Assembly: GCF_000151315.2 (NCBI RefSeq)
Contig: NW_011887299.1
Location: 1,140,885 to 1,204,884 of the forward strand
DNA from: Capsaspora owczarzaki ATCC 30864
Lineage: Eukaryota > Opisthokonta > Filasterea
DNA: 64,000 bases
Reading direction: 5' to 3'
Part shown: positions 3,747-64,000 of the stretch, piece by piece
Layout of the letters: the number at the start of each line of letters is the position of its first letter
Numbering within the stretch: position 1 is the stretch's first letter
Position numbers and translations under genes: made by a program
The notes under the pieces: generated by a model
What the model was told of the DNA's origin: nothing
Seen by the model: the letters and a program-made list of their open reading frames with translations, nothing else
Database searches by the model: none

Positions 3747-6700
3747 ATGCTGGAGTATCGCAGTATGACTAGGAACCAGCGCTGGCTGTATGACAGATTC
3801 AAAGATCGGGGTGGAACTCTCTAGTAAGAGAAAGCCGAATGTATCGAGAGTGTATCAGCGTGGGTTGACGAGCTGGACAGTCTGAACCGCCAGCAGATGA
3901 ACGATGCGGAAGTGCAAGCCATTGCTGCAGCTCTCAAAGTGAACAAGGTGGCAACTGTGATATTGTAAGGCAACCTTTGACTGATACATGCGAGTGGGTG
4001 ATCCGGCAGATGACATTCAGACCGCTCACTGATGGAAGATGACCAGGCTGAGTGAAAATTTGTTTGGCAATGCTGGTGTGCAGGCGGTTGCTGATTCACT
4101 CAAAGTGAACATGTCGGTGACTACGCTCTGGTAGGGATTGACTGATGCATGAGAATGGGAGATATCCAGCTGATGGCACTCGTAGTGCTCACGTGATGGA
4201 GGGGGTGGACAGCTTGCGCTCAAATCCAATTGGCGATACTGGGGCGTTGGCGATTGCTGAGACACTCCAACTAAACACGACGCTAACTTTCATCCGGTAC
4301 GTCGTCTCACTTTGACTGATGCATGTGACAGTTGATGGCATTCAGAGTGCTCACTCGGGGGAGGGATGGTCAGCCTGGGCGATTGTCAGATTGGCGATGC
4401 TGGAGCGCAAGCAATTGCCAAGACACTCCACGTGAACACGACGCTGGCTTGCCTCGAGTCAGGCATCTTTGAATGATGATTTTGAGTGGATGATCCAACA
4501 AAGCACAGTTAGAGTGCTCACTGATGGACGGGACGGACAGATTGAGTGCGAATCAGATTGGCGATGCTGGAATGGAGGCGATTGCCCTCGCATTCAACGT
4601 GAACAAGACGGTGACTTCCCTGCGGTAAGTCATCTTACAATCACTAAAGCATGTGAGTGGGTGATTTCAGCAGAGTGCTTTCAGAGTGCTCACTGAAGGA
4701 GGGAACAGTCTGGGTGGGAATCCGATCGGTGATGCTGCAGCGCAAACGATTGCTGAGACACTTGCAGTGAACACAACGCTCACTGAGCTAGGGTAAGAAA
4801 GTTCGCTTGGGTGATCCAGCATAGGGTATTCAGAGTGCTCACTGATAAATGGGATGTACAGTTTGGGTGGCGCTAACAGCAATCACCTTGGCGATGCTGG
4901 AGCGCAGGCAATTGCTGAGGGACTCAAGGCAAACAAGGCGGTGACTGCGCTCGAGTAAGGCATCTCATGTTTACTGATGCATGAAGTGTGTGATTCAGCA
5001 GACAGCATTCGGAGTAATCACTAATGGAGAAGCCGAGCAGTTTGTCTATGAATGAGATTGGCACTGTTGGAGCGCAGGCGATTGCTGAAGCACTCAAAGT
5101 GAACACCACGCTCACCAAGCTCGAGTAAAGCTTCTCATTGACTGATGCATGCAGGCGGATGTCATTAAGAGCGCTCATTGATGGAGGGGACGGACAGATT
5201 GAGCGTGAATGGGATTGGCGATTCTGGAGTGAAGGCGATTGCTGATGGACTCAAAGTGAACCCAAGGTTGACCGAGCTCCAGTAAATCGTCGCACGTTTG
5301 TTGACATGTGTCAGTTAGTGACTTTAGGAGAGTGTTTACTGATGGAGGAGAGACAGTTTGGCTCATTGTCAGATTGGCGCTGCTGGTGCAAAGGCGATTT
5401 CTGAGGCACTTAAAGTGAATAAGACGGTGACTCAGCTCTAGTAAGGCGCCTCACTCTTCCTGATGCTAGTGAGCGGGTGACTTCAACAGATTGGCTCGCT
5501 GATGGAGATGGTTTGAACAGCTTGGGCTATAATCAAATTGGCGATGATGGAGTGCAGGCAATTGCAGACACACTCAAAGAACACACGATGACCGAACTCA
5601 TGTTAGTCTTCTCACTTTCACTACTGCATGTGCGTGGGGGATTCACTCGAGTCCATTCAAAGTGCTCACTGATGAAGAGGACAGTCTTAGTGGGAATCGG
5701 ATTGGCGATGCCGGAGCGCAGGCGATTGCTGAAGCACTCAGGGTGAACAAGAGGCTGACGAAGCTCTTGTAGGTACTTTGGTTTGAGTTGAATGCCAGTT
5801 CTAGCTGGGATGTGTTTACGGCGAGTGTGATTAGTCTGCACGAAAATCAGATCGGATATTACGAGGAAACTGCATTGCGTCAGAGCGCCCATGCATCATG
5901 CACAATGTAAGGAAGTCATCTTAGTTGCACCACATAACGACTAAATTTCTTTCTCTTTCTGTATTACTGTATTTCGTCACACCAGACACATGTGGGTGCA
6001 ACACAGACCCGATTCTGTTCGCTGCACAGAAGTTCGTGTGGTGTTACTGGGCGATCCTGCTGTTGGGAAGACATCTCTTGTTCACGGCATTGCTCAGCAT
6101 GAGCGCAATCCAGTGGTCAAGCTTTTTTCGGGAAACAAGACAATCAAGACCACCTCTACCGACGGAATCGACATTTCCTCTGTCATTCTTCGCGATAAAT
6201 TGCCCATGATTCTGAACATTTGGGACTTTGCTGGTCAAGAGCTGTACCTCGCTTCGCATCAGTTCTTCCTTGGCGAACGTACCATCTACTTGGCCCTGTT
6301 TGACGTTCGCGAAACCATTTCGCGCAATTCGCGCCTGGCTTTCTGGCTACGCAGCTTGCTTTCTCGCGTTCCGAACGCCGATATCATTCTTGTCGGTACC
6401 CACATTGATGACAAGTCCTACAGTCCGCAGCGCCATCAGGAGCAGCTAGAAAATCTTGCAGAGCTGCTTCTGTGCTTTAAGCAAACGCACACCTCATTCA
6501 ACATTCGCTCGACTGTTTATATCAACGCGAGCACAGCCGCAAGCGCCTCGACAATGTCGGAGCTCAAAGCGGCAGTGCTCGAGGCCAGCCGAAAGATGCC
6601 ATCCTATTATTCGGAAGTTGACGGCCGCTACTTGCAATTCCGAGATCTTCTGCGTGATCGAGCGAATACAATGGAGGCTGACAAGAAGCCGCCGCTCCTG

Positions 6701-9148
6701 CGATGGAATGAAGTTGTCAATCTTGGCATGTCGCAGTGCAAACTTTCCATGCAAGCGGTGAACGTGTGCATGCAACTTTTGCGTGATCAAGGGTGGGTCG
6801 TTTTTCATCGCTTGGCACCAGCCGCTGATGCCGTCTCTGGGACAAACGCTTCAGAGCAAACGCACGCCAATGATCACGATCTCGTCATTATTAATCCACA
6901 GTGGTTCACGAAAACCGTGTTGACTGGTGTGATTACTCAGAAACATACATGGGTCAAGAAAGGAATTCTAGCCCGCGCTGATCTGCTTGCACATGTTTGG
7001 AGGAACTTGGATCCGGCTGTGTGTGATCAGCTCCTCGTTCTACTTCAACGATACGAACTCCTGTATCCGCTCGCTGACGCTGACGCAGGAACATCAGGTC
7101 CCCGCTACCTTGTACCATCGTTTCTGCCTGTTGGACAGCCTGACCGCAGGGCATGGTCCGCCAATCCTCGCAAAGACGAGCCACATGAGGCCACCCTCGT
7201 GATGCGAACGGCCTTCCTGTACACTGGCTTTTTCTCGCGAGTCATTGCCCGGCTGAATCACCTTGAGCTCAACATGACTGCATGGCGCGATTGCGTGCTT
7301 GTGAACAGAAATCATCATCGAGCGCTCGTTCAGATCCATCGTCGCACAGAAGAGGATGTGGTTGATCTAGTTATTGTCGTGCGCGGCGCTTCTCCAGGCA
7401 ATTTGCTCGAAACGCTCTTTGGCGTTGTCGAAGATTTGACCACGTACTGGTACACGGGTATGACTTGGCAAACCTACCTGCGGTGCACGGAATGTGCTCG
7501 CGATGTCCAAGACGCCTGCCTGTTTGAGCTTGAGCCTACAGTGCTTGCCGCCGTCATCCCAACCAAGGAACTGAGTTGTGATCATTCGCAACGAACGCTG
7601 GATCGTGGCCAGTGGCTCGCCTTCATTCAGCCACTTCTGCTGCGCACCTTGTCAAGCGTCGCGGAGCTAACTGAGCTGCAGCGACAGGTACTCTCTGCAT
7701 TTGGCGTCTCTCCCGCAGTTGCGCCAAGTACGGTCGCGCCAATTGCACAGCCTGAGCCCGAGAGCCATGCGTCATCGTCCTCCGCCATTCCAGTTCCAGC
7801 AATCGCTACCACTATTCTTCGCGTTGGTATGGAAGAGCTTTCGCAAGCCACTGGCAACTTCGCGCCTTCCCGGTGCATCGGAGGCGGCGGCTTTGGCAAC
7901 GTTTACTCTGGTACTTGGAGTGGTGCACAGGTTGCAGTCAAGCGTTTGGCAGCGAATTCGACGCAAGGCATCTCGCAATTTCAGGCCGAACTCGACGCTC
8001 TGACTCGTTATCGCCATTACAATGTTGTCACCATCATGTGCTATGCTCACGAAGGCAACGACTGCTGCTTGGTGTACGAGCTAATGGCAAACGGTTCAGT
8101 GCGCGATCGTCTGGACCGCAAGGGTAGCACGCCTGCTCTGACTTGGCCACAACGGCAAAAGATTGCCACCGAGATTGCGAGCGCCATGCATTTTGTGCAG
8201 ACTGCCATTCCGCGTCAGCCGCTGTTCCACTTGGATCTCAAGACGGACAATGTATTGCTAGATGCCCATTTCACTGCAAAGGTCGCCGACTTTGGGCTGA
8301 CACGCTCTGCACCAGCTCAGACGGCCGCGCAGAGCTATATCCAAACGCTGACCATTCAAGGAACTCGCCAGTACATTTGTCCTCAGTACCGTGATGAAGG
8401 CAAGGTCTCCATCAAAACGGACGTCTACTCGTACGGCATGATTTTGCTCGAGCTGCTGACTGGGAAGCAGCCTGGTATTGAGCTTGCTGGTGCAGTGAAA
8501 CGTGCGCTTAAAAAACAGGGTCAAATCGATTCCGAGTTGGATGCGTCAATCGTGTGGGGTGCTCCAGACAAACTCGCTGCCACCGCAGTGGCGGAAATTG
8601 CTGTTGCTTGCCTCGAGCCCGATCGAATCGACCGACCAACCTTTGGCCAGATTCTGAAAGGGTTTGGTCAATCTGGCGAGGACCAGGGCAACGCACTTGC
8701 TCGTGCTGCAATGCCCCAAAATGCCAGGATGGAGCATCATCGCGCTCTCATCAAAGAGCAGCTGCAACATCATTTGGACTCGGGTCTCGTGAGCTCTCAC
8801 ATGGAGCCACAATCCCAACTTGCCGAAGTTAGCGCCGCAGAAGTTTCACGACTGAGTCATCGCCACAGCACCATCAAGGAACAGCTCGCTCCTATTGCAG
8901 ACTCGATTGTGGTGAGCACTAGCGAACAGTCGCAGCTGGCCGCACCGGAATTGAGCCCGGACATCGATCGCGAATGCTTGCTGTGTTTCAGCGCTCCGAC
9001 GACAGCCAAGCTGATACCTTGCTGTCACGCCTGTGTCTGCGTGGGGTGTGCTGATTTGATGATTGAGCGTCAGGACAAGTGCATGATTTGTCGTGTCATC
9101 CCGACCTCGTATCTCCAGGGTATTTTCAACCAGACGTTTGTTCCCTGA
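3747..9148 (+). CDS. LRR-Roc-COR protein kinase with C-terminal RING finger
   Basis: Exon 1 (3747-3823) is followed by thirteen exons, each one leucine-rich repeat (NOD/RNI type, core xLxxNxIGDAGAQAIAEAL), all joined in phase 2. A large last exon (5986-9148) completes about 1444 aa. Next comes a Roc GTPase (P-loop GDPAVGKTS, switch-II WDFAGQE, guanine motif GTHIDD in the NKxD position), a COR region, then a serine/threonine kinase of the RLK/IRAK-like TKL group at roughly residues 1005-1280 (glycine loop GGGGFGNVYSG, VAVKRL, HLDLKTDN, VADFGL). All kinase catalytic residues are present. A linker with two copies of an IKEQL...QSQLA segment leads to a C3HC4 RING near 1385-1427 (ECLLCF, CCHACVCVGC, CMIC). 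This suggests a signalling scaffold that both phosphorylates and ubiquitinates. The N-terminus is uncertain; an upstream exon may exist. Confidence 0.88.
3881..5906 (+). repeat. Tandem array of LRR exon-intron modules
   Basis: Thirteen modules start at 3881, 4047, 4213, 4374, 4541, 4709, 4862, 5041, 5199, 5357, 5521, 5685 and 5826, with a mean period of about 162 bp. Nearly all exon parts are exactly 84 nt (28 codons); module 7 has 93 and two have 81. The intron parts also resemble each other, sharing elements such as actgatgcatg just after the donor and cagagtgctcactgatgga before the acceptor. The repeat unit is therefore exon plus intron, not exon alone. The last module is the most divergent. 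Confidence 0.92.
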
Positions 9149-9440: not shown

Positions 9441-9689
9441 ATGCGATGCGCTGCTGAGGACTGCGGCAATTTCGGTCGACCGTTTGCCATGTGCAGCAAG
9501 TGCAAGCAGCGAAACTACTGCGGTTCACATCGAACAACCATGCCAGATGGGGCCGAGCTGTGTCCGCCATGCCTGGCTCTGCACGAAAGCGCGCCAGCGA
9601 GTTCCGATCGAAATTCGAGTAACGCGGCCACCCAAAGTGACAACACGTCAGCCACCAGTCACCCGAATGCTCAGCCAACCAGTGAATGA
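9441..9689 (+). CDS. Small AN1-like zinc-finger protein
   Basis: An 82-residue ORF with a cysteine/histidine-rich first half: C-x4-C-x9-C-x2-C-x5-C-x2-H-R followed by a CPPC pair. This is close to the AN1 zinc finger, although the last H-x5-H-x-C part is replaced by the CPPC segment; MYND-like treble clefs are an alternative. The second half is Ser/Thr/Asn-rich and looks disordered. An AATAAA lies about 165 bp after the stop, consistent with a transcription unit. A possible 5' UTR intron ends at 9412 (catttag). AN1 fingers bind ubiquitin-related partners, but no function can be assigned here. Confidence 0.55.
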   Translation: MRCAAEDCGNFGRPFAMCSKCKQRNYCGSHRTTMPDGAELCPPCLALHESAPASSDRNSSNAATQSDNTSATSHPNAQPTSE

Positions 9690-16084: not shown

Positions 16085-18763
16085 ATGATGATGATGCAGT
16101 TTGGCTGGACTTGCATTACGATTGCCGTCGCAGCACTCGTCGTTGCCCCGACTGCGCGTGCGCTCACCTGCGAGGACGCCGCGCTGCGCAACCTTCCGTT
16201 CTGCAACCCGAATCTCGCGTGGGAGCAGCGCGCTGACGATCTCGTCGGTCGCCTCACTCTTCAGGTGTGGATGATGCTTGAAATCGGAGTTCGGAGAAAC
16301 GCTGCAAATTTGGGGGTGCTGCTGCTGCAAAGAGTTACTCCGGGGTTCTCAATGGCATTGAGTACCGAAAGTCGGACCAATTGTTATCATGACAGTGGAC
16401 TTTTGAGTGGACTTTTGAAAAAGCCGAAATCTTCCAACGAGCAGGACTGTGCTGTGGTGCTGCTGCATGTGGTTGTCTCACAACTGTGGCTGCGAATGCG
16501 CAAATTTGGAAATGCAAACAGGAAAAGATCAGCCAGTTTGGAACCACTGCGCCCGGCGTTGCGCGACTCGGGGTGAATGCGTACGAGTGGTGGAGCGAGG
16601 CGCTGCATGGCGTTGCTGAATCACCAGGCGTGAACTTTACCGGCAACACGCCCGTTTCCACCTGCTTTCCTCAGATTATTGGTAACAACTGCTCGTCGCT
16701 CAGTCGTGATTTCGAGAACCCCGAAACCCTCACTCTTGTCAACTGCTCTCTTTCATCTTGTTTCCCTTTCGCCATGCTAAGGCGTTGGCGCCACGTTCAA
16801 TTTGGACAGCGTCGCCGCAATGGCGCAAGTCATCTCCACCGAGGCCCGTGCGTTTGCCAACGCTGGACATGCGGGCTTGACGTACTTTACCCCAAACATT
16901 AACATTTTCCGTGATCCGCGCTGGGGTCGCGGGCAGGAAACGCCCGGCGAAGACCCGTACCTGACCTCGCGCTACGTGGAGACGCTGGTGCAGAATCTCC
17001 AGAACGGCGAAGATGCGCGCTACCTCAAGGTCGTCGCCACGTGCAAGCACTACACGGCGTACGACATGGAGGACTGGGGAGGCATTGATCGCTTCCATTT
17101 CAACGCCGTCGTGAGCGACCAGGATTTGGTGGAGACGTTCATGCCGCCGTTCGAGGCGTGCGTCCGGGTTGGAAAGGGGGCCAGTCTGATGTGCAGCTAC
17201 AATGCGGTGAATGGCATTCCCAGCTGCGCCGACGACTTTATCAACAATGAGATTGCTCGAGAGCAGTGGGGCTTTGACGGCTACATTGTGTCGGATTGCG
17301 GCGCGATCGACTGCATCCAGTACACGCACAACTACACCAACACGACGCAAGCTACCTGTGCTGCCGGCATCCAAGGCGGTTGCGATCTGGACTGTGGCGA
17401 CTTTTACCAGTCGCATCTGATGGACGCGATCGGCAACGCTACGCTGCACGAAGCCGACCTGGACTTTTCCCTGCGACGTCTCTTTGGCCACCGCATCCGC
17501 CTGGGCGAGTTTGATGCGGCCAGCATCCAGCCCTACCGCCAGATTCCAGTCTCGGCCATCAACTCGCAGGAGCATCAGGAGCTCGCCCTTCAAATCGCGC
17601 GAGAGTCAATCGTGCTGCTCGGCAACGACAACAACACCCTGCCTTTCAGCTTGGCCACCGTTCGCAAGCTCGCCATCATTGGACCGAACGCCGACGATGC
17701 CGAGACGCTGCTGGGAAACTACTATGGCGATGCGCCGTATCTCATCACTCCGCTCAAGGGCTTTCAGCAGCTCGATCCGACCCTGTCCATCACGTTCGTC
17801 AAGGGCTGCGACGTCAATTCGACCGACACGTCTGGCTTTGTGGCGGCTGCGGCAGCGGCAAAGGCGGCCGACGCCACCATTGTTGTGGTCGGCCTCAACC
17901 AAACGGTCGAGTCGGAAAATCTCGATCGCACAACGCTCGTCCTCCCAGGCGTCCAGGCCGAGCTCATCCTGGCCCTGACTGCGGCCGCGCGGGGACCGGT
18001 TATTCTTGTCGTCATGTCCGGCAGTCCCATCGACCTCAGCAACGTCATTCATCCGGTTCGGGCCGCCCTCTGGATTGGCTACCCTGGCCAAGCTGGCGGC
18101 CGGGCGCTGGCCGAGGCGGTGTTTGGCGTCTTCTCCCCTGCCGGTCGCCTGCCCTTCACCGTCTACCCCGCAGACTACGTCAACCAGTTGCCAATGACCA
18201 ACATGGACATGCGCGCGGGTCCGGGCCGAACCTATCGCTTTTACACGGGCACCCCTCTGTTTGAGTTTGGCCACGGTTTGAGCTACAGCACGTTCCAGTA
18301 CACGTGGTCCAACAGCAGCAGCAGCAGCAGCAGCAGCGCCACGAGCCAACACTCGCTGTCGACGGCTGCTCTGGCTGCGCAACACCTCGCGGCGCGTGCG
18401 CCTGTCGAAGCCGTGTCCTTCCGTGTGCTTGTGCAAAACACTGGCAAGATGGCTTCGGATGATGTCGTGCTGGCCTTTGCGTCATTCAACGCCTCGTCCA
18501 TCATCGACCAGAGCTCGAGCCAGTTCGCCTCACCTCCCATTCGATCGCTCGTCGGCTTCCGACGCATTCATCTTGCCCCAGGCGCCTCGCAGGAGATCTT
18601 TTTCGCAGTGACCTCCAGCCAACTCGCCCAGGTCGACTCCACTGGAGCGCAGACTCTTGTTCCTTCCCGGCTTCAAGTGGCGTTCGGATCGGATGCGCGT
18701 CTGGTGGCAGAGATTCAGCTGGTTGGAGAGCCGGTTTCCCTCTCTGCTCCGCTTCGCCGCTAA
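16085..18763 (+). CDS. Secreted GH3 beta-xylosidase / beta-glucosidase
   Basis: Three exons (16085-16264, 16522-16681, 16782-18763) join in phase to 773 aa. The N-terminus is a signal peptide ending ...VVAPTARA before LTCED. The N-terminal GH3 barrel contains PRWGRGQETPGEDP, KHYTAYD and the nucleophile motif GYIVSDCGAID, with Asp of SDCGAI as catalytic nucleophile. The second GH3 domain and a C-terminal fibronectin-III-like domain (YRFYTGTPLFEFGHGLSYS) follow. The SDCGAI motif and cysteine pairs resemble plant BXL and fungal Bxl1 beta-xylosidases, so xylan- or arabinan-derived oligosaccharides are likely substrates, by family knowledge only. A TCC/AGC-type serine run at 18315-18340 is a poly-Ser linker. 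Another in-frame start at 16043 would lengthen the signal region. Confidence 0.93.
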
Positions 18764-27326: not shown

Positions 27327-30300
27327 ATGAGCGAGCCAATGCAAACCACTGAGCCCAATCTCCCGCCAATACCACACGAGGCGCCGGCAGCAGCAGACAC
27401 GAGCGACGACGCCTGCGCCCTGACAACGACAACGACAATGGCTGTGGCTGCAAGCACAAGCTCAACTGCACCTGTCGATGCGCAGCCAAGTCGGCGCCGG
27501 AAGCTGTTCAGTCAGCAGTTTGAGCGTGTCCGCGAGGTCGTCGACGGACTGCTGCGAACCGAGCTCAGCGTCCGACTGAATGAGGTAAAAAACAAACAAG
27601 CTTGCTCAGAAAAATGTTGGAAAATGCAGCCACTATTGGCATCCAGCATGATGCTGCGAGGGTTATTCGATTCATGTATGGAGGCAGATGAACGAAGATG
27701 CTGAGCAAACTCGACATACTGGATGCTCTTGAAAAACCACAGCTCGAACTCGTCAATGCAAGACTCACAGATACGAGACACGCGCTCGACCAACTACGAT
27801 TACTGCTTAGTGCTGGGTAAGCGACTTTCATTTCGAGTCATTTCGCACCAAATTCGTTGCCTCGACTTCCTGCGATTTCCATCCACCTGCTCACGCCACC
27901 CGATTGCGCGATCTGCACAAATCCCTTCTCTTTGCGTTCTCCCGCTTGCAGATCCAAATTGTCGGCGCGCCGGAAAGACGACATTCTCGCTGCCGTCGCC
28001 ACCACGCGGCCAGATCAAAGCGCACCGGCACCGGCCCCGGCGGCCCCTCCAACAGCACTTGCGACTTCTGCTGTCATTTACAAGCGCCGCGATGGCAAGC
28101 TGATCAGGGTTCGATGCCCAGAGTGCATGAAAGAGGACTTTAAAAACTACCAAGGCTTTGCCAACCACTGCCGGATGCTGCATCGCACCTTCTATCCGAG
28201 CCACGACGATGCCCTGTTCGCAGCAGGCGTCGTGATTGAGCCGCACGAAGTGCCAGAGGGCGTGTCTGTGATTGATCTGGCCGGAACACAGCTACTCGAC
28301 ATGGACAAGGGTGGGCTGGTCTCGCGCTTGCCGTTGGCCGGCGCCGCTGCACCCGGCATCAGCACGATTGGTCTGACGGAGGCCGCGCCACTGGCAATCT
28401 CGTCGCGATTCTTTGTACGGAAACGCGTCATTGTGGGAAACACATCGCAGTACATTTCGCCAGACCGGCGAGATGCCGACGACCAATCGTCCCACAAATG
28501 GATGGTCTATGTCCGCGGCCCAGCCGAAACGCCCGACCTCGCTCCATTTGTCAAGCACGTCAAGTTCTTTCTGCATCCCTCGTACAAGCCCAACGATGTC
28601 GTTGACGTGACGTCGCCGCCCTTTCATCTCACACGCCGAGGCTGGGGCGAATTCCCAGTTCGTGTGCAACTGCATTTTGTCGATCCCAAGAACAAGCCTC
28701 TTGACATTATTCATAATTTAAAGGTGAGTCAAAGCCGTGTCCGAGTTGAGAATGTTTGGTTGATTTTGGGTGGTTGGTTGTTTTTGTTTTTTGTAATGTT
28801 GGTTTGGTGGTTTTTGTTTTTTTGTACACGCTGCTCATCCTACGTGATTGCTTTCTTGCTCACAGCTTGACAGAACAAATACTGGACTCCAGACGCTCGG
28901 AGCCGAAACCACCTTAACTATCGACTTGGATCGTGCGTTCTTTGATCGTCAGAAACGCGTTGACAAGCCATCGGAAACCTCCGACTTGCCGTCTCCTTCT
29001 TCTGCTGATACACCCCAGCAAGAGAATGGCGCCACTTTGAATGAATTTTTCATGGAGCTACCGGACGTTGACTCTATTGCGCAAAGCCTGGTTGCTTCAG
29101 GCGCAGCGACGCCAATGCATGCCAACTTTACACCATTGCCGCAAGACTGGCACTCGCAGCTGAATGCAATTGCACAAAACTCGCTCCATGAGCACGTCGA
29201 GGATGAGGAATTGCTCTTCAGCGCGGTGCTCGACGACACTTTTCATGCGGATCTTGACGAATTTGACTTTGGCGCTGGCGACTTGCACGCGACCGCGGAT
29301 GCTGGTGCTGTTGTGAGTGCAGCGACACACTTTGCCGACCCGTCTGCCACTGGTGTGGGACGCGATCACTCTCAGAAATCGAGCTACAGCGGTCCGTGGA
29401 CGCTGTGCAAGTTTTGTGGATCTGCGTCCCACTTGGACTCGACGGAATGCTCGCAGCAGCTTGAACTCTTCCGGGGTAGTGGAGATGTCAAAACAATCAA
29501 CACTGTGTCTTCCTCGCAAGCCCTGCTCGGTCAGCTCGCCGCAAGTGTCGGTAAGTTCAGAATTGATCCACTTTGCTTTGTCCCGTGCCTTGTTCTTTGG
29601 CATGTCTTCTGACTGTCGCTTTTTTTTCGCTTTGTTTGTGTGGCTTCTGCTGCACGCAATTGTCAACGATGCAGACCACGGGGAAACAGAGCAGAAGCTA
29701 TCTGTCGACGATGACAATCACGATACAAACGTCAGGCGACCGCGCTTTCAAACAGCCACGCAGTCCGCTACGTTGGCCGCACTGCCACCAGTCGACGGTA
29801 AGTGCGAATGGATGACAGAGCTTTGCCACATTGGTCCATCTCAGCTCACAATCTCGTGCGCTCTTCCGCCAGCGACCGAATTGGGAAAACTTCCGCCTCG
29901 TTTGCAATGGGTTCGAAGGACTGCACACCAAGCAGACGTGGTACTTTCTAATATACCCTTGCACGACCAGCCTCGTGAAACTGCTCCTCAAGCGGACGAG
30001 CTCATACTTCAGGTCAGATTTTCGAACTTGCATGGTCAATCTTTTGAAATCGCAACATCTCTGAGCGCATATCTGGTCCCTGCTGTCGTAGGCTGCCTTG
30101 TCGATGGCTCGTAACCTCTTGCTGAAAGCGCTGGCCTCGAAGAGCCAGAGCTCTTCCTCGGTTGCGAACATTCCGCCTGTGCAAGTCATCACTCCCGTCG
30201 ACATCTTCTTGGCGATTCGAGGCACTTCCGAACTTGATTTTCTCTCAAACGAGAATCTAGGAGCCGATCTTTCCACACGACGGGGAGCAGACCTTGCACC

Positions 30301-45173: not shown

Positions 45174-48100
45174 AGACCCACGCCGGTCAGAGCAGGCGCA
45201 CGAGCACCACCAGACTGCCGCGGCGGCGGACATTCCAAACCAGATTGCGGCGGCGGTCGCGGCAGCCATCGAGACGAGCGCACTGATGGCCAATCTCGGC
45301 TTGCCGCTCGTGGGCGACCAAGTTCTTCAGAACGATCGCGAGTTCATCCAGCAGCAGCAGGCGCATCGTTCCATGGACAGTCTCACCTCTTCGTTGGTCG
45401 AGGTGCGGCGCTCCAATGTGCCCGACCAGGACCAGCAATCGTTCGATATTCAGGTACTGTACAGTTCTGGACTTTTCAATTTTCTCGACAACTACGTTCG
45501 TGTGTATTGTTTGTTTTTTTTTTTTTTGGGTGTGTTTCGGCTGTGATTGCTCACTTGTGACTCTGGTCTTGCTGTGTGCTATAACAGTCATCCGCCTCGT
45601 CGGTCTGCGCATTGGCGACGCAGGTGGTGCTCGGAGCTACGGGGAATGCCACATCGTCCGAAACGGGCTTGGCGACGTACGCAAGCACGGTGCTGCAGTT
45701 GCAGCTCGCATCCAGCTCGCTCTTTGTAGCCATGGAGCGAGCCGTGTGCTTGTTCTTGAACGTCGATGAGGTGCCTCGCGCCGTCGACGCGCATGGGCAA
45801 ATCATTATTCCGCCCAAACGCCAGCGCGCGCCGGCAAACCCAACGTCCGCTCCGAGGGAGGCCAGCACTCATGGTCCGCTCGGCTTCCAGCACAATGCCT
45901 TCGGGAGGGAGCAGCAAGACCGCTGGACGTCGGGCTTGAGTCTCGCGCTCGAGCAAAAGCGCAAAACCATCTATGTCGCCCTGTCGGAAACCAAAACCTT
46001 CTTCAATGCCAATCGCATCAAGAGCATGATTCGAACAAGCGTCGTGCCGAAAGCACTTTCCAAGCTTGTCAGCTCGGATGCGCAGTCAGAGGGGGCGGCG
46101 GCGGCTCCCACATCCACCGTCAGCCCTTCCGCAGTTTCCATCTCGGCTCCGCGACCCGTTTCCTCCGGCCCTTCTGCCGAACCGCCCGCCCAGCCAGTTT
46201 CGACACCAAACCCTCCGCCTCGTAAGCGTGCCGTAGCTCTTGCAACCAAGCCGCAAGATCGGACGGCCAAGGCAGCAGCCATCACCAACAATGCCGCGAA
46301 TGGTTCCGTCCAAGAGGCACTCGCAGAACCCGCCTCTGTTTCTGCCCCGTCTGTCACCGCGACAACAGGAGGGGAGGACACGCCCATGCTGCCGTCCGTG
46401 TCCGGCTTTGTTGACTTTGTGAGCTCTCTGATGCCAGCGTCGACATTGTCGCCTTCCTCCGCCAAACCCACCGGTGTCGTATCAACGCCCCACGATACAA
46501 ACAAGCCAGCTCAGACACCCCCATCTGCACAAACAGCACTCAAACCTCCACCGTCAAAGCAGCCGCCTCCCACACCGCCCGTCCCTGTGCCTCGTGTGTT
46601 TGCAAGCAAGCAAATGGCTGCGGTTCCAACCAACGTGCTCAGCAGGCGCATGCGTAATCCCTTTGCTTTGCTGCCGCACAGCGACTATCTCAAGTTTACG
46701 CTCACCGATGTTATTCCCAATGCTTTGGGAGTCGTGTCTGAGCAAGCTTCCCGACGCGGCTTTCGGAAGGGCGCCGAGCCTCAGTCCAAGGACCACATTT
46801 ATTGTCTGCTTGTGAGCAGCAACATGGCCATGCATACTCCCCCTGACGGGACGGTGGAGTGGACTCCGACCTACATGACGAATGCAGCAGGGACGCGCTA
46901 CATTTCGCAACGTCCGGCTGTCCAGTTTGTCGTTCATCGGCGATTTGAGCATTTTTGCGAACTGTGTGATGCACTGTCCGCTGTAGTCCCAGGGTACCTT
47001 CCAACCTCAGCCGAGCTGCGCGCTCCGTTTCATTCCCAACTGCACGCGATCGCTGTGAACAATGCATCTGCAACCCCGAGCACTCTGACTTCTCTCCCCA
47101 TTTCTGGATCCACAACAAGCTTTAGCGCTCCAATCGCCAGCACCAATGCCGGTGGAGTGGCTAGTCTAGTCAATCCCTTGCTACTTGCAACTTCTCAGCC
47201 CACCCCTCTTGCTGCCGGTGCTGGTGCTGGTGCTGGTGGTGGTGCGGACGCTCTGCGCGGCTCGTTTTCGTCCTTTACATCGTTTGTCGGGGCCCTCACT
47301 GGCCACACTGCCGCTACTACCCAGCCAGGGGCGGCGGGCCATCAAAGTCTTGGTCTGTACGGTGGTGCGCCTGAGGACGTTCGTGCGTTATGGATTCAAC
47401 GCATGCTGCGTTTGATTGCCAAACACCCGCTGCTCAAGCGCAGTCGCCCCCTTGCCGAATTCCTGGCCCATGGCCGGCTTTCTACCCTGTCTGCGACTTC
47501 CGCCTCTCGTGATGGGCGAGCCAACCTCCGGCTGTGCGATGTGGATTTGAACGACGATGGTGAGTTTGTGCGGTGTATTTTGTTTTCTTTGCGATCAATT
47601 TTTGGTCGCTTCACCTGGTTTCGCTTTGGTTTTTGTCACCTTACATTATGGCTTTGGTCCTTTTCCACATGCAGCAATCAATATTTTCACACCAGACTCG
47701 TATCCGGACGACTGGGCGTTGGATTCTCCGGCCTTGTCCAGCTTGTCACCGGCGGCACTGATGCTGCTCGTCAACCCCAGTGCTACTGCTGCCGCGCCCC
47801 AAAGTCCTGCTGTCTCGGCAACGGTTGCAAGCCCCGTTTCTCCAACCCAGTCTGTGCCTGCCAACGTGGGCTGGTTGTCGCAGACGCTGCCGGTTTTGTC
47901 CGCAACGTCCTTACGCACGACAAATGCAGCGGCTAGGCCCCTGTCGCCTCCTCCGGTTGCTGCTTCTCCTACTCTACCAGCGCCATCTGCCACGGCACCA
48001 GCAGTTTCTGTTGCTCCTTCTTCAACCACCCATGCCGCTACGCCTGCTTCGCTTCCCGCAGGCGGCAGCCCAGCGCTCTCTCGCATCGCTGCCCTACGCC

Positions 48101-50663
48101 CAGCTCTATTTGGCGGACGCTCTGGGTCCGTGGACGAAGGGTCTGCTGGCGATTCTGCGCCGCTCATCACTTACTTCACGCCGCAGTTGTACTCTGCCGA
48201 GGATGTCGAGCACCTGCCGATTGCTTGCAACGAGCTCTTTACTGCCATCGACTCGTCTCAAACTCCGCAAAACGTGACCGCCCCCATTCCGGACGAACCA
48301 ACTGCAACTGCGTCGAATGCAGCTGCTGACGACAAACCAACTGCAGCACACACAGACGCAGTTGCTCATGACAAAGCGACGGCTGCAGTGACGCCAGAAC
48401 CCGCATCCGCCAGCGTTCCGGTTTCCGATATTTCCACCACGGAAACGGCTGCAACACATGCTGGCGCCTCGACGACAACTTTCGCGCACGCTTCGTTCCA
48501 ACCAACGAATGCAAGCGGCTCCCCGGCTCCGAACAGCAGTCTTGCCACCCCTTCGGCGACCGCAGTCGCGAGCAGTGCAGTCACCGTCCCGGCACCGTTC
48601 TCCAACGTGAGCATTTCCGCGACCGACGAAAAGCGCATTGTCACGTTCAACCGGCTGGACTTGGTGCCCGGCGGCTCGACGAACAGCATCATCAATGTTC
48701 CCGTCCTGTCGCTCGTGTCAAACGACGACCGTTATCGCGTCATGGCTGGCTCGGTCGATCAGCTGCTCCAACTCTTGGGAAGCGTGGCGGAGGTCTCGGA
48801 CGAGTATCTTGCTTGTCTCGCGCTCACCTTCCGTGGGTTTGTCAAGCCCATGGATGTGTTGATGAAGCTGTTCCAGCTGTACAACATTCAGGTTCTTGCA
48901 GACAGCAGCGGGCCGCTCTCCTCGCCTGACGACACAGTCGTCGATACTTTTGCGATTCGAGCGCGCCTTCTTCGATTCGTGCAGTGCTGGATTGATTACT
49001 ACGTGGTCGATTTCGAGGCGGACGATGTGGACTCTGTCATGGACGACTTTTTGCTTTTCGCCGGCCGGTCCTCTCGCGACCATCTTGCCATCGTTGCGGA
49101 AACGCGCCAGCTGCTGGATGCTCGGCGAGCTGAATTTGCCGCGCCATTTATCGCGCGCGCGGCCAGTCAGCGTCCAGCCGCCGTTACTGCTGCTGCTGCT
49201 GCTGCTACTACTACTACGACTGCTACTGCTACTGCTGCTGTTACTGCGACTGCTACTGCTACTGCTACCGCTCCTGCTCCTTCTGTTGCAGAACCTTTGC
49301 CCCTCTCCAACCAAACTACCTCCGACGCGGCGACACTCGCTACTCCAGAATCTGCAGTCACGGATACTCTGGGCCTGTGCGTTGTTCAGATTCATCGTTT
49401 GTCAACCATGCTCGAGTGTGTTCGACAGGGACGGGAGGAACTTCCTTCTGACGTGGGCGGTTCGGGCTTGGTTCTCTCTGGGGACGAAGATGAGGATGGA
49501 CCTGGTGGCGACGAAGAGCCCGCCCTCGTTGCGCCTGTGGACAACAGTGTCATCACAGCACCCTCGGTCGCGCCATCCGTCATTCCAGCTGCACCAGCTT
49601 CGGTCGTGGTTCCTCCACCGCCACGTCGCAAGCGCGAAGCCCCCAATCTCATTGACACTCCCGCGCTCGCATTGGCAGAGCAGCTCACCCGCATTGAAAG
49701 CGACCTGTTTGCTGCCATTCATCCGGAAGAGTACATTCTCCAGCTCTTTGGAAGCAAAGGCTACAGCGAAGAGACGTTTGCAGCGATTACGAGCGGGCTC
49801 ACTGCTTTTGTTGATCGGTTCAATCAAGTCAGCTATTGGGTGGCTACAACCATCTGCCTGCAGCCGCAGCTCCATCTCCGCGTCTCCATTGTCGAAAAGT
49901 TTGTTGAAGTAGCCAAGGTATGTTGATTTTTTTTTGCTTGCGACGGTGGGCTGCTGAAGTTTTTTTGTTTGTTCTCACACAAGAATGATTGTTTCCTGTT
50001 GCGTTTTTTTTTGTTATTTTTTTCATTGTTGCCGGTGTTCATCTCATAGTATTGCCGGATGCTGCGAAATTTCAACACTCTCATGGCCATCATCTCTGGC
50101 CTCAATGTGGCAGCCGTCCAGCGGTTGCACAAGACGTGGGAAGGACTTGCCCCGCGCTCAACCACAATTCTCCACGAGCTGGAGAATACCATGAACCCTG
50201 CCATGAACTATGCCACGTACCGCGAACTAATTGCGCATGCGCGTAACTCTCCTTGCATTCCATTCTTTGGTACGCCCACAACGACAAATCACGATCGTGT
50301 GCTTGGCTTCGTTCATTGGTGATGTACTTTGCGCTGATGTTTGGTGCTTGTTTTGTGCTTATTGTCCGTTCCTTGGTAGGTTTGCATCTCAAGGACTTGA
50401 CGTTCATCAACGATGGCAACTCTACCAAGCTCGACGGCGGGTTTATCAATTTCGACAAAATGTGGCAGCTGTACGACGCCATCCAAGATCTGCAGCCCGG
50501 TGTTCGGCTCGCGTATCGTATTCCGCTGAAGCGAGGCATCAACAACTTTTGCCGGAACATTACCGCCATTGGAGAGAATGCGCTCTACAAGTATTCGCTT
50601 CTCTGCGAGCCCCGCGCCAACACGGACAAGGTTCGCCTGATTGAAAAGTGGTCGAGCTCGTAG
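44779..50663 (+). CDS. PX-domain Ras guanine-nucleotide exchange factor
   Basis: Exons: 44779-45452, about 45587-47560, about 47674-49917, about 50049-50270 and about 50378-50663, roughly 1,780 aa. The N-terminus is Ala/Glu/Gln-rich with a 13-residue glutamine run. A PX-like domain follows (YLKFTLTDVIPN, VHRRFEHFCELCDALS, then WIQRMLRLIAKHPLLKRS), with an Ala/Thr-rich insert between its halves. A RasGEF-N (REM) domain is at about 48710-49080 (YRVMAGSVDQLLQLLGS to VDFEADDVDSVMDDFLLFAG). The catalytic CDC25 domain starts DTPALALAEQLTRIE and includes NFNTLMAIISGLNVAAVQRL, MNPAMNYATYRELI and CIPFFGLHLKDLTFINDGN. It should load GTP on Ras/Rap-type GTPases at phosphoinositide-bearing membranes. An ACT/GCT repeat near 49185-49275 encodes a Thr/Ala run. 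Confidence 0.9.
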
Positions 50664-60700: not shown

Positions 60701-60935
60701 AAACCACAAAAAAAAACACGCACAGAATCGCAGCAACGCAAATGTGCCACTGCGACTCCAAGCAACAAAACGAACAAAAACAAACAACAAAACAAAAATG
60801 ACAATAAAAAACAAAAACGCGAAAAAGTTGTTGTGCACATGCAGGTGACCTCGTCCACCCGTTCCTGTTTACTAATTTTGTGACATTTTTTGCACTTGTA
60901 TTTTATCATCCGTGACAGGTCAAACAACCATCGTG
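57703..60935. other. 3.2-kb gene-poor, homopolymer-rich region
   Basis: Lies between the divergent zinc-finger and glycoside-hydrolase genes. A 36-to-38-base A run at about 57757-57794 is the longest homopolymer of the window; others are at 57974-57990, 58209-58226 and 58634-58652. Two minus-strand stretches read somewhat like coding sequence: about 58075-58010 (GDTAARHGALESS, weakly ankyrin-like) and 60114-59794, where frames read AKEFKKHAPIYELVFMPT and SICMETMSGGLDMVRN. Neither could be joined into a gene or assigned to a family. The end of the region should contain the promoter of the downstream gene, perhaps with a 5' UTR intron ending at 60918 (gtgacag). Confidence 0.4.
57757..57794. repeat. 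Long A homopolymer
   Basis: An uninterrupted A run of about 38 bases on the plus strand just upstream of the zinc-finger gene's first exon. Homopolymers of this length are prone to slippage and to sequencing error, so the true length is uncertain. Confidence 0.9.

Positions 60936-64000
<3,065 letters not shown>

Follow-up and report, generated by a model that had tools for sequence, protein, structure and literature searches.

Does a single gene of a unicellular organism encode a Roco kinase which carries its own RING finger behind the kinase? The question is raised by a locus of Capsaspora owczarzaki ATCC 30864, a single-celled relative of animals belonging to the class Filasterea of the Opisthokonta. 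The window analysed here is a stretch of 64,000 nucleotides from contig NW_011887299.1 (positions 1,140,885 to 1,204,884), and the gene in question occupies positions 3747 to 9148 of its plus strand, to which all features of the window described below belong. A preliminary description of this DNA had reported a gene for leucine-rich repeats (LRRs), a Roc GTPase, a COR region, a kinase and a RING. All of these parts could be identified, and in profile searches each of the effector domains exceeded its Pfam cut-off, in the order that had been given. The Roco kinase ending in a RING is thus real, and it is encoded in one exon.

The gene corresponds to a public protein of the same strain (P0002, 1434 amino acids, named 'TKL/IRAK protein kinase, variant 1'), which maps exactly onto the window as 15 spliced exons. 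The annotated protein starts in exon 1 (3747..3823) and continues through twelve LRR exons, exons 2-13 (3881..5768), with LRR_6 being matched in P0002. Exon 14 (5835..5906, 72 bp) is a final repeat-like exon ahead of the effector exon. The latter, exon 15 (6007-9145, followed by the stop codon TGA at 9146-9148), comprises 3139 bp in a single frame and encodes Roc, COR, kinase and RING without interruption, as had been proposed. It lies in an open frame of 1052 amino acids (5990-9148), to which P0002 is 100% identical with 99% of the frame covered. The length of 1444 residues originally given has to be corrected to the 1434 residues of the annotated protein, with exon 15 starting at 6007.

Residue numbers of domains and motifs refer to the 1052-residue frame. 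The Roc domain (6035..6436; PF08477, PF00071) covers residues 16-140 and scores 70.1 bits against a cut-off of 27. Both motifs previously reported for it were located, the P-loop GDPAVGKTS at residues 21-29 (6050-6076) and WDFAGQE at residues 78-84 (6221-6241); GTHIDD is found at 6395-6412. The COR region (6602..7669, bounds approximate; PF16095, PF25497) includes matches to COR-A (residues 292-379, 44.9 bits, cut-off 35.3) and COR-B (residues 403-537, 38.2 bits, cut-off 27). As judged by these profile matches, Roc followed by COR, the protein is a Roco protein. The P-loop and the DFAGQ motif are present, and GTP binding, GTP hydrolysis and dimerisation via COR are putative functions. The best whole-chain matches of the predicted structure are LRRK2 and LRRK1 entries, LRRK2 being the best.

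A protein kinase domain (7802..8680; residues 628-890, 134.5 bits, cut-off 23.1) follows directly after the COR, as in LRRK-type Roco kinases. The Lys, Asp, Asn and DFG of active kinases are all present; VAVK lies at 7931-7942, HLDLKTDN at residues 747-754 (8228-8251) and DFG at residues 767-769 (8288-8296). Its description as an RLK/IRAK-like kinase holds, the predicted fold being closest to IRAK4 and plant receptor-like kinases (RLKs) among solved structures. It has to be added that the kinase is of the non-RD type, with HLD at the catalytic loop. The Pfam scan of P0002 revealed neither a death domain of the animal-IRAK kind nor a WD40 match, nor NACHT or NB-ARC, in whose position Roc-COR is found.

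The kinase is joined to the RING by a linker (8681..8965) which is predicted to be mostly disordered, with a predicted local distance difference test (pLDDT) score of about 30-40. The segment behind it (8966..9145) comprises the C3HC4 RING and a conserved C-terminal tail, according to PF13920, the family alignment and the fold. That the Cys-rich C-terminus might match no RING profile had been named as a possible objection; the zf-C3HC4_3 profile (PF13920) matches residues 993-1036 with 33.8 bits against a cut-off of 27. Together with the profile match, all eight zinc ligands of a RING-type E3 are present (C996, C999, C1011, H1013, C1017, C1020, C1031 and C1034). In an alignment of 27 family rows the last six are kept in all 26 rows with a residue, C996 in 23 of 24 and C999 in 24 of 25. 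The ratio of nonsynonymous to synonymous distance (dN/dS) of the RING is 0.25 between the window gene and its paralogue L012, 0.36 and 0.30 to the two RINGs of paralogue L010, and 0.22 as the family median over 203 pairs (dS 0.05-1.5, more than 40 codons). The RING was also folded by itself, because the VIA alignment of the whole model was filled by the kinase; its predicted fold is closest to cIAP2, cIAP1-UbcH5B-Ub, MEX3C, IDOL and MDM2. The similarity of this model to the cIAP1-UbcH5B-Ub and MDM2 structures makes E2-dependent ubiquitin transfer a putative activity of the window RING. Profile, conserved ligands, dN/dS and fold together rule out that the RING is a chance Cys-rich stretch.

The window gene is not a lone oddity, since paralogues are found in the same genome. 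From 304 candidate loci 44 were scored, so that all counts are lower bounds; 36 further loci (L009-L044) were examined, and for L029-L044, where the stretches are 1.6-2.4 kb, the upstream parts were taken from the annotated proteins. Roc-COR together with a kinase occurs at no fewer than 6 of the 36, five of which also match a RING. At least 8 carry Roc-COR with a different tail, at least 18 a kinase and RING but, within the stretch examined, no match to Roc-COR, and at least 4 a kinase with no RING match at the threshold used. If the window gene is included, the genome contains at least seven Roco-kinase loci, in six of which a RING, whole or broken, is present, and COR-B is matched at 15 places. 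Roc to RING is uninterrupted in two loci, the window gene and L010 (G000:C19:100000-108000), whose frame of 1044 amino acids encodes a Roco kinase with two intact tandem C-terminal RINGs. Annotated Capsaspora proteins carry the kinase-RING part also behind LRRs (e.g. P0124, P0127 and P0243), behind a stretch resembling a coiled coil (P0137) and behind an SH2 domain (P0133 at L039 and P0135 at L041). Through the SH2 domain, recognition of phosphotyrosine could be coupled to an output by kinase and RING in this single-celled animal relative. The interpretation given in the preliminary description is therefore supported but has to be widened, as the modular family is no less novel than the window gene itself.

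Other loci of the family show arrangements of their own. L015 (P0009, source name RAB10) has a Rab-like GTPase domain ahead of Roc-COR, and thus two small-GTPase domains in one chain. The eight Roc-COR loci L015-L022 share an alternative tail, a helical-looking stretch followed by a conserved region around QVQMQLDLLDKPCPLLFVV, for which the Pfam lists of the annotated proteins contain nothing. At L025 (G000:C2:2631000-2637000) two tandem IRAK-like kinases are encoded in one open frame.

The LRR exons of the window gene are strikingly uniform. In exons 2-13 a single RI-type LRR is encoded per exon; the length is 84 bp in ten of the twelve and 93 and 81 bp in the others, all twelve run from phase 2 to phase 2, and the introns measure 66-86 bp. 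Exons and introns together form a diverged tandem repeat with a unit of about 160 bp. Due to the common phase any of these exons could be skipped, duplicated or exchanged with the frame left intact. Seventeen annotated Capsaspora proteins were mapped exactly (P0005 on L014 and P0126 on L026 remained unmapped, and L025 had no candidate protein). LRR exons are present in 15 of the 17, and every 84-bp exon of these 15 genes runs from phase 2 to phase 2, whether the gene encodes a Roco protein, an LRR kinase or an LRR-kinase-RING protein. For 14 of the 17 proteins the exon with which the Roc-COR or kinase part begins has phase 2 at its start; at L011 and L018 it starts in phase 1, and the model of L010 begins inside the effector exon. 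In the whole genome (27.46 Mb, 29 contigs) a 29-base LRR signature with up to 2 mismatches gave 1,094 matches and the reversed pattern none. This DNA pattern was used because the Pfam LRR_6 genome search matched nothing, likewise in control genomes.

Variability along the repeat was determined for 109 exons of 84 bp from 16 genes; exons had been chosen by size (78, 81, 84, 87, 90, 93 and 99 bp), so that the share of 84-bp exons, 109 of 116, is a figure after filtering. Four positions per LRR reach 3.43-3.88 bits and the other 24 positions at most 2.65. By the LRR consensus we take these four to be the exposed positions of the beta-strand, and the variability peaks at the presumed binding face. 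The ratio of the proportions of nonsynonymous and synonymous differences (pN/pS) is 1.01 at the four positions and 0.48 elsewhere for 296 close pairs. Only six exon pairs among the 109 are at least 93% identical, one of them 100%, and all of them are between different genes, which indicates that the mapped genes have undergone little very recent shuffling.

The effector parts do not share one history. The Roc-COR tree (17 rows) puts the genes with a kinase tail in two separate places, and the starred branches force at least two changes; a single Roc-COR group of the seven kinase-tailed genes is rejected (16 rows, approximately unbiased (AU) test, p = 1.45e-10). In the kinase trees, by contrast, the six sampled Roco kinases form one clade, with support of 100 in a quick search (54 rows) and 100/99 in a careful one (28 rows, P0056 being dropped for want of a kinase match), and in both trees this clade is nested among Capsaspora LRR-kinase genes. 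The frame-split kinase of L013 is in neither kinase tree, which leaves P0005 as the sole representative of the second Roco clade in them. The synonymous distances agree with these discordant trees: between the window gene and L013 dS is 2.10 for Roc-COR, 0.81 for the kinase and 0.32 for the RING, and between the window gene and L014 it is 2.01, 0.44 and 0.32, with the RING value being based on 32 codons only. Inheritance of the kinase together with Roc-COR as one unit is ruled out by the discordance of the trees, which indicates that the tail moved between Roco genes. The simplest reading of these sequence comparisons is that a Roco gene captured the kinase(-RING) tail once and that the tail was then transferred to a second Roco lineage.

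A common origin with the kinases of other Roco proteins is likewise disfavoured by the trees. A tree which unites the Capsaspora Roco kinases in one clade with four such kinases from other organisms is rejected (AU p = 5.3e-5, 28 rows), the four being long-branched and human LRRK1/2 not included; the kinase does not share its descent with the Roco kinases tested. For Dictyostelium and LRRK2 it has been suggested that Roco proteins acquired kinases independently (cited in PMC11378527). LRRK1, LRRK2 and the Dictyostelium Roco proteins have the order LRR-Roc-COR-kinase in common with the window protein, which differs by its C-terminal RING, by having no WD40 match in P0002 and by a kinase that groups with Capsaspora LRR kinases.

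The preliminary description knew of no Roco kinase with its own RING behind the kinase, and the literature available to our search likewise gave no account of one, nor anything recognisable as about the window gene among papers on Capsaspora Roco, LRR or kinase genes. The homologue searches list 120 of 212, 120 of 246 and 120 of 4793 matches. No Roc-kinase-RING protein outside Capsaspora is among the 120 of 212 listed, in which one long domain list is incomplete. The kinase-RING part itself is found in metagenomic proteins, behind ankyrin repeats in P0138 (47% identical to a Capsaspora member over 73% of it), behind WD40 in P0274 and behind armadillo repeats in P0280; in P0282 it follows an extended N-terminal region that matches no Pfam family. 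P0280 and P0282 have HLG at the position of the catalytic Asp, which makes them candidate pseudokinase-RING proteins. Other high-ranking homologues (120 of 4793 listed), many with plant names, mostly have no RING listed and were excluded from the kinase-RING evidence. The cassette is thus not confined to Capsaspora, while its Roc-COR version is seen only there among the matches listed.

How does this architecture compare with known LRR receptors? The animal NOD/NLRC proteins contain a NACHT ATPase and are not known to carry a kinase-RING tail, whereas the window protein has Roc-COR where NACHT would stand, followed by a kinase-RING tail, and is therefore not an NLR. The exon anatomy is alike: PMC6642158 describes for NOD/NLRC one 28-residue RI-type LRR per frame-preserving exon with the exon border within the beta-sheet, and the same single repeat per exon (10 of 12 at 84 bp, all 12 in phase 2 to 2) and the same border are found in the window gene. 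The brown-algal ROCO genes, whose domain order is given as LRR-ROC-COR only, are reported to shuffle LRR exons of 72 bp in phase 2, with one LRR each and a variable concave face (PMC11378527, the main text of which does not mention RING, ubiquitin or Capsaspora). They share with the window gene the LRR-Roc-COR order, single-LRR exons in phase 2 and variable positions on the concave face; the length differs, as the RI-type exons of the window gene have 84 bp instead of 72 bp.

We propose, with a probability of about one half, that the window protein, whose single chain combines LRRs, Roc-COR, a kinase of the non-RD, IRAK-like type and a C3HC4 RING, acts as an intracellular LRR sensor which would recruit ubiquitin signalling to itself. 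The LRR array would bind a foreign or cellular ligand via its variable beta-strand face. In Roco proteins the GTP/GDP state and COR contacts are tied to the oligomeric state; ligand binding would rearrange Roc-COR, and nucleotide state and COR contacts would then set the oligomeric state of the receptor. In chains brought together the kinases would phosphorylate one another in trans as well as the disordered linker. The C-terminal RINGs, with a predicted fold nearest to the cIAP/MEX3C/IDOL/MDM2 class, would then dimerise and assemble ubiquitin chains, either on the receptor itself or on targets of the kinase. An IRAK-like kinase and its E3 partner would in this way share one chain. In the animal pairs IRAK-Pellino and RIPK1-cIAP an IRAK/RIPK-type kinase works with a RING E3 as two separate proteins, in contrast to the single chain of the window gene. 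For a kinase and a RING within one polypeptide the plant protein KEEP ON GOING (KEG) provides a precedent (PMC5385374). LRR exons, with their common phase, and kinase-RING tails, with their discordant trees, may serve as interchangeable parts.

Several findings weigh against this proposal. Among the six Roco-kinase loci with a RING, four (L009, L012, L013 and L014) show a frame change or a cut tail, L011 has no RING match, and the RING was gained or lost often on the kinase tree. Over all pairs pN/pS of the four variable LRR positions is 0.87 (0.47 elsewhere), and position 20, outside the face, reaches 1.86. The ratios are not clearly above 1; positive selection on the LRRs is thus not upheld, and the pattern fits diversification or relaxed constraint. 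The dN/dS of the window RING is higher against L009, L013 and L014 (0.54, 0.51 and 0.65, the last over 32 codons only). Moreover, non-RD kinases can signal without catalysis, as shown for plant EFR (PMC8463890).

The main rival explanation, which we consider rather unlikely, is a self-limiting receptor in which the kinase provides the output and the RING mainly ubiquitinates its own phosphorylated chain, so that a receptor which has fired is eliminated. RING-less kinases are numerous in the family and the kinase appears able to serve alone. A precedent for a kinase state which steers the RING within the same chain is KEG, which like the window protein unites RING, kinase and repeats in one polypeptide; its RING is located at the N-terminus and not at the C-terminus, and its repeats are ankyrin and HERC2-like instead of LRR and Roc-COR. 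The phosphorylated form of KEG self-ubiquitinates more and the kinase-dead form is more stable (PMC5385374). The conserved ligands and low dN/dS of the RING in many copies fit either role, and the presence of two RINGs in L010 speaks against mere self-removal.

It is unlikely, too, that the diverse LRRs are directed at the organism's own cells or at endogenous signals, for example in aggregation, and not at microbes. Capsaspora does have an aggregative stage, and exon anatomy and LRR variability are neutral as to the ligand. By eye, however, no N-terminal signal peptide or membrane span is evident, and outside ligands would need another route.

Quite improbable is that the family is recently expanded and partly decaying and that the window RING persists as a structural relic which does not act as a ligase. 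At L009 a stop codon lies five residues ahead of the tail end; L012 has a frame change between Roc-COR and kinase, and L013 and L014 a frame change within the kinase, with the RING of L014 being broken as well; L023 and L024 retain RING remnants 3' of the kinase. RING presence requires five changes on the 54-row kinase tree, which indicates that the RING was gained or lost often. Nevertheless, the ligands are intact and dN/dS is well below 1 among the window gene, L010 and L012, and L010 is a second intact gene. An annotation artefact with kinase and RING on separate transcripts can practically be dismissed in view of the uninterrupted 3139-bp exon in one frame and the same order in L010 and in kinase-RING genes without Roc-COR. 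The 'variant' names in the public record are no more than a hint of transcripts.

If the proposed sensor function is true, ligand sensing, a GTPase switch, phosphorylation and ubiquitination would be united in one protein, steps which animals spread over receptor, IRAK/RIPK and Pellino/cIAP. The protein would then be a natural minimal system for both LRRK2-like GTPase-kinase coupling and IRAK-E3 coupling. For the genome as a whole we suggest, more tentatively and at somewhat less than even odds, a combinatorial intracellular receptor system with more than 1,000 LRR units, 84-bp exons that are interchangeable wherever mapped, and swappable output exons, with a GTPase-kinase-ubiquitin ligase chain as the most elaborate. 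Such a system would parallel NLR immunity in a single-celled organism, with the receptor, the IRAK-type kinase and the E3 united in one chain and both sensors and output tails being exchanged between genes. With a large exon-modular LRR family in a unicellular animal relative, which combines one-LRR exons like those of human NOD/NLRC genes with the phase of brown-algal ROCO genes, it becomes directly testable whether immune-type LRR diversification arose before animals or repeatedly.

Directly 3' of the Roco gene an open reading frame for 82 amino acids (9441-9689) is rich in Cys and has no Pfam match; it is possibly a small zinc-binding protein or a gene remnant. Further open frames of the window match glycosyl hydrolase family 3 (16781-18760), YEATS (27821-28867) and RasGEF (47551-49923) in Pfam, and the frame at 60876-63998 gives a weak EGF/teneurin-like EGF match.

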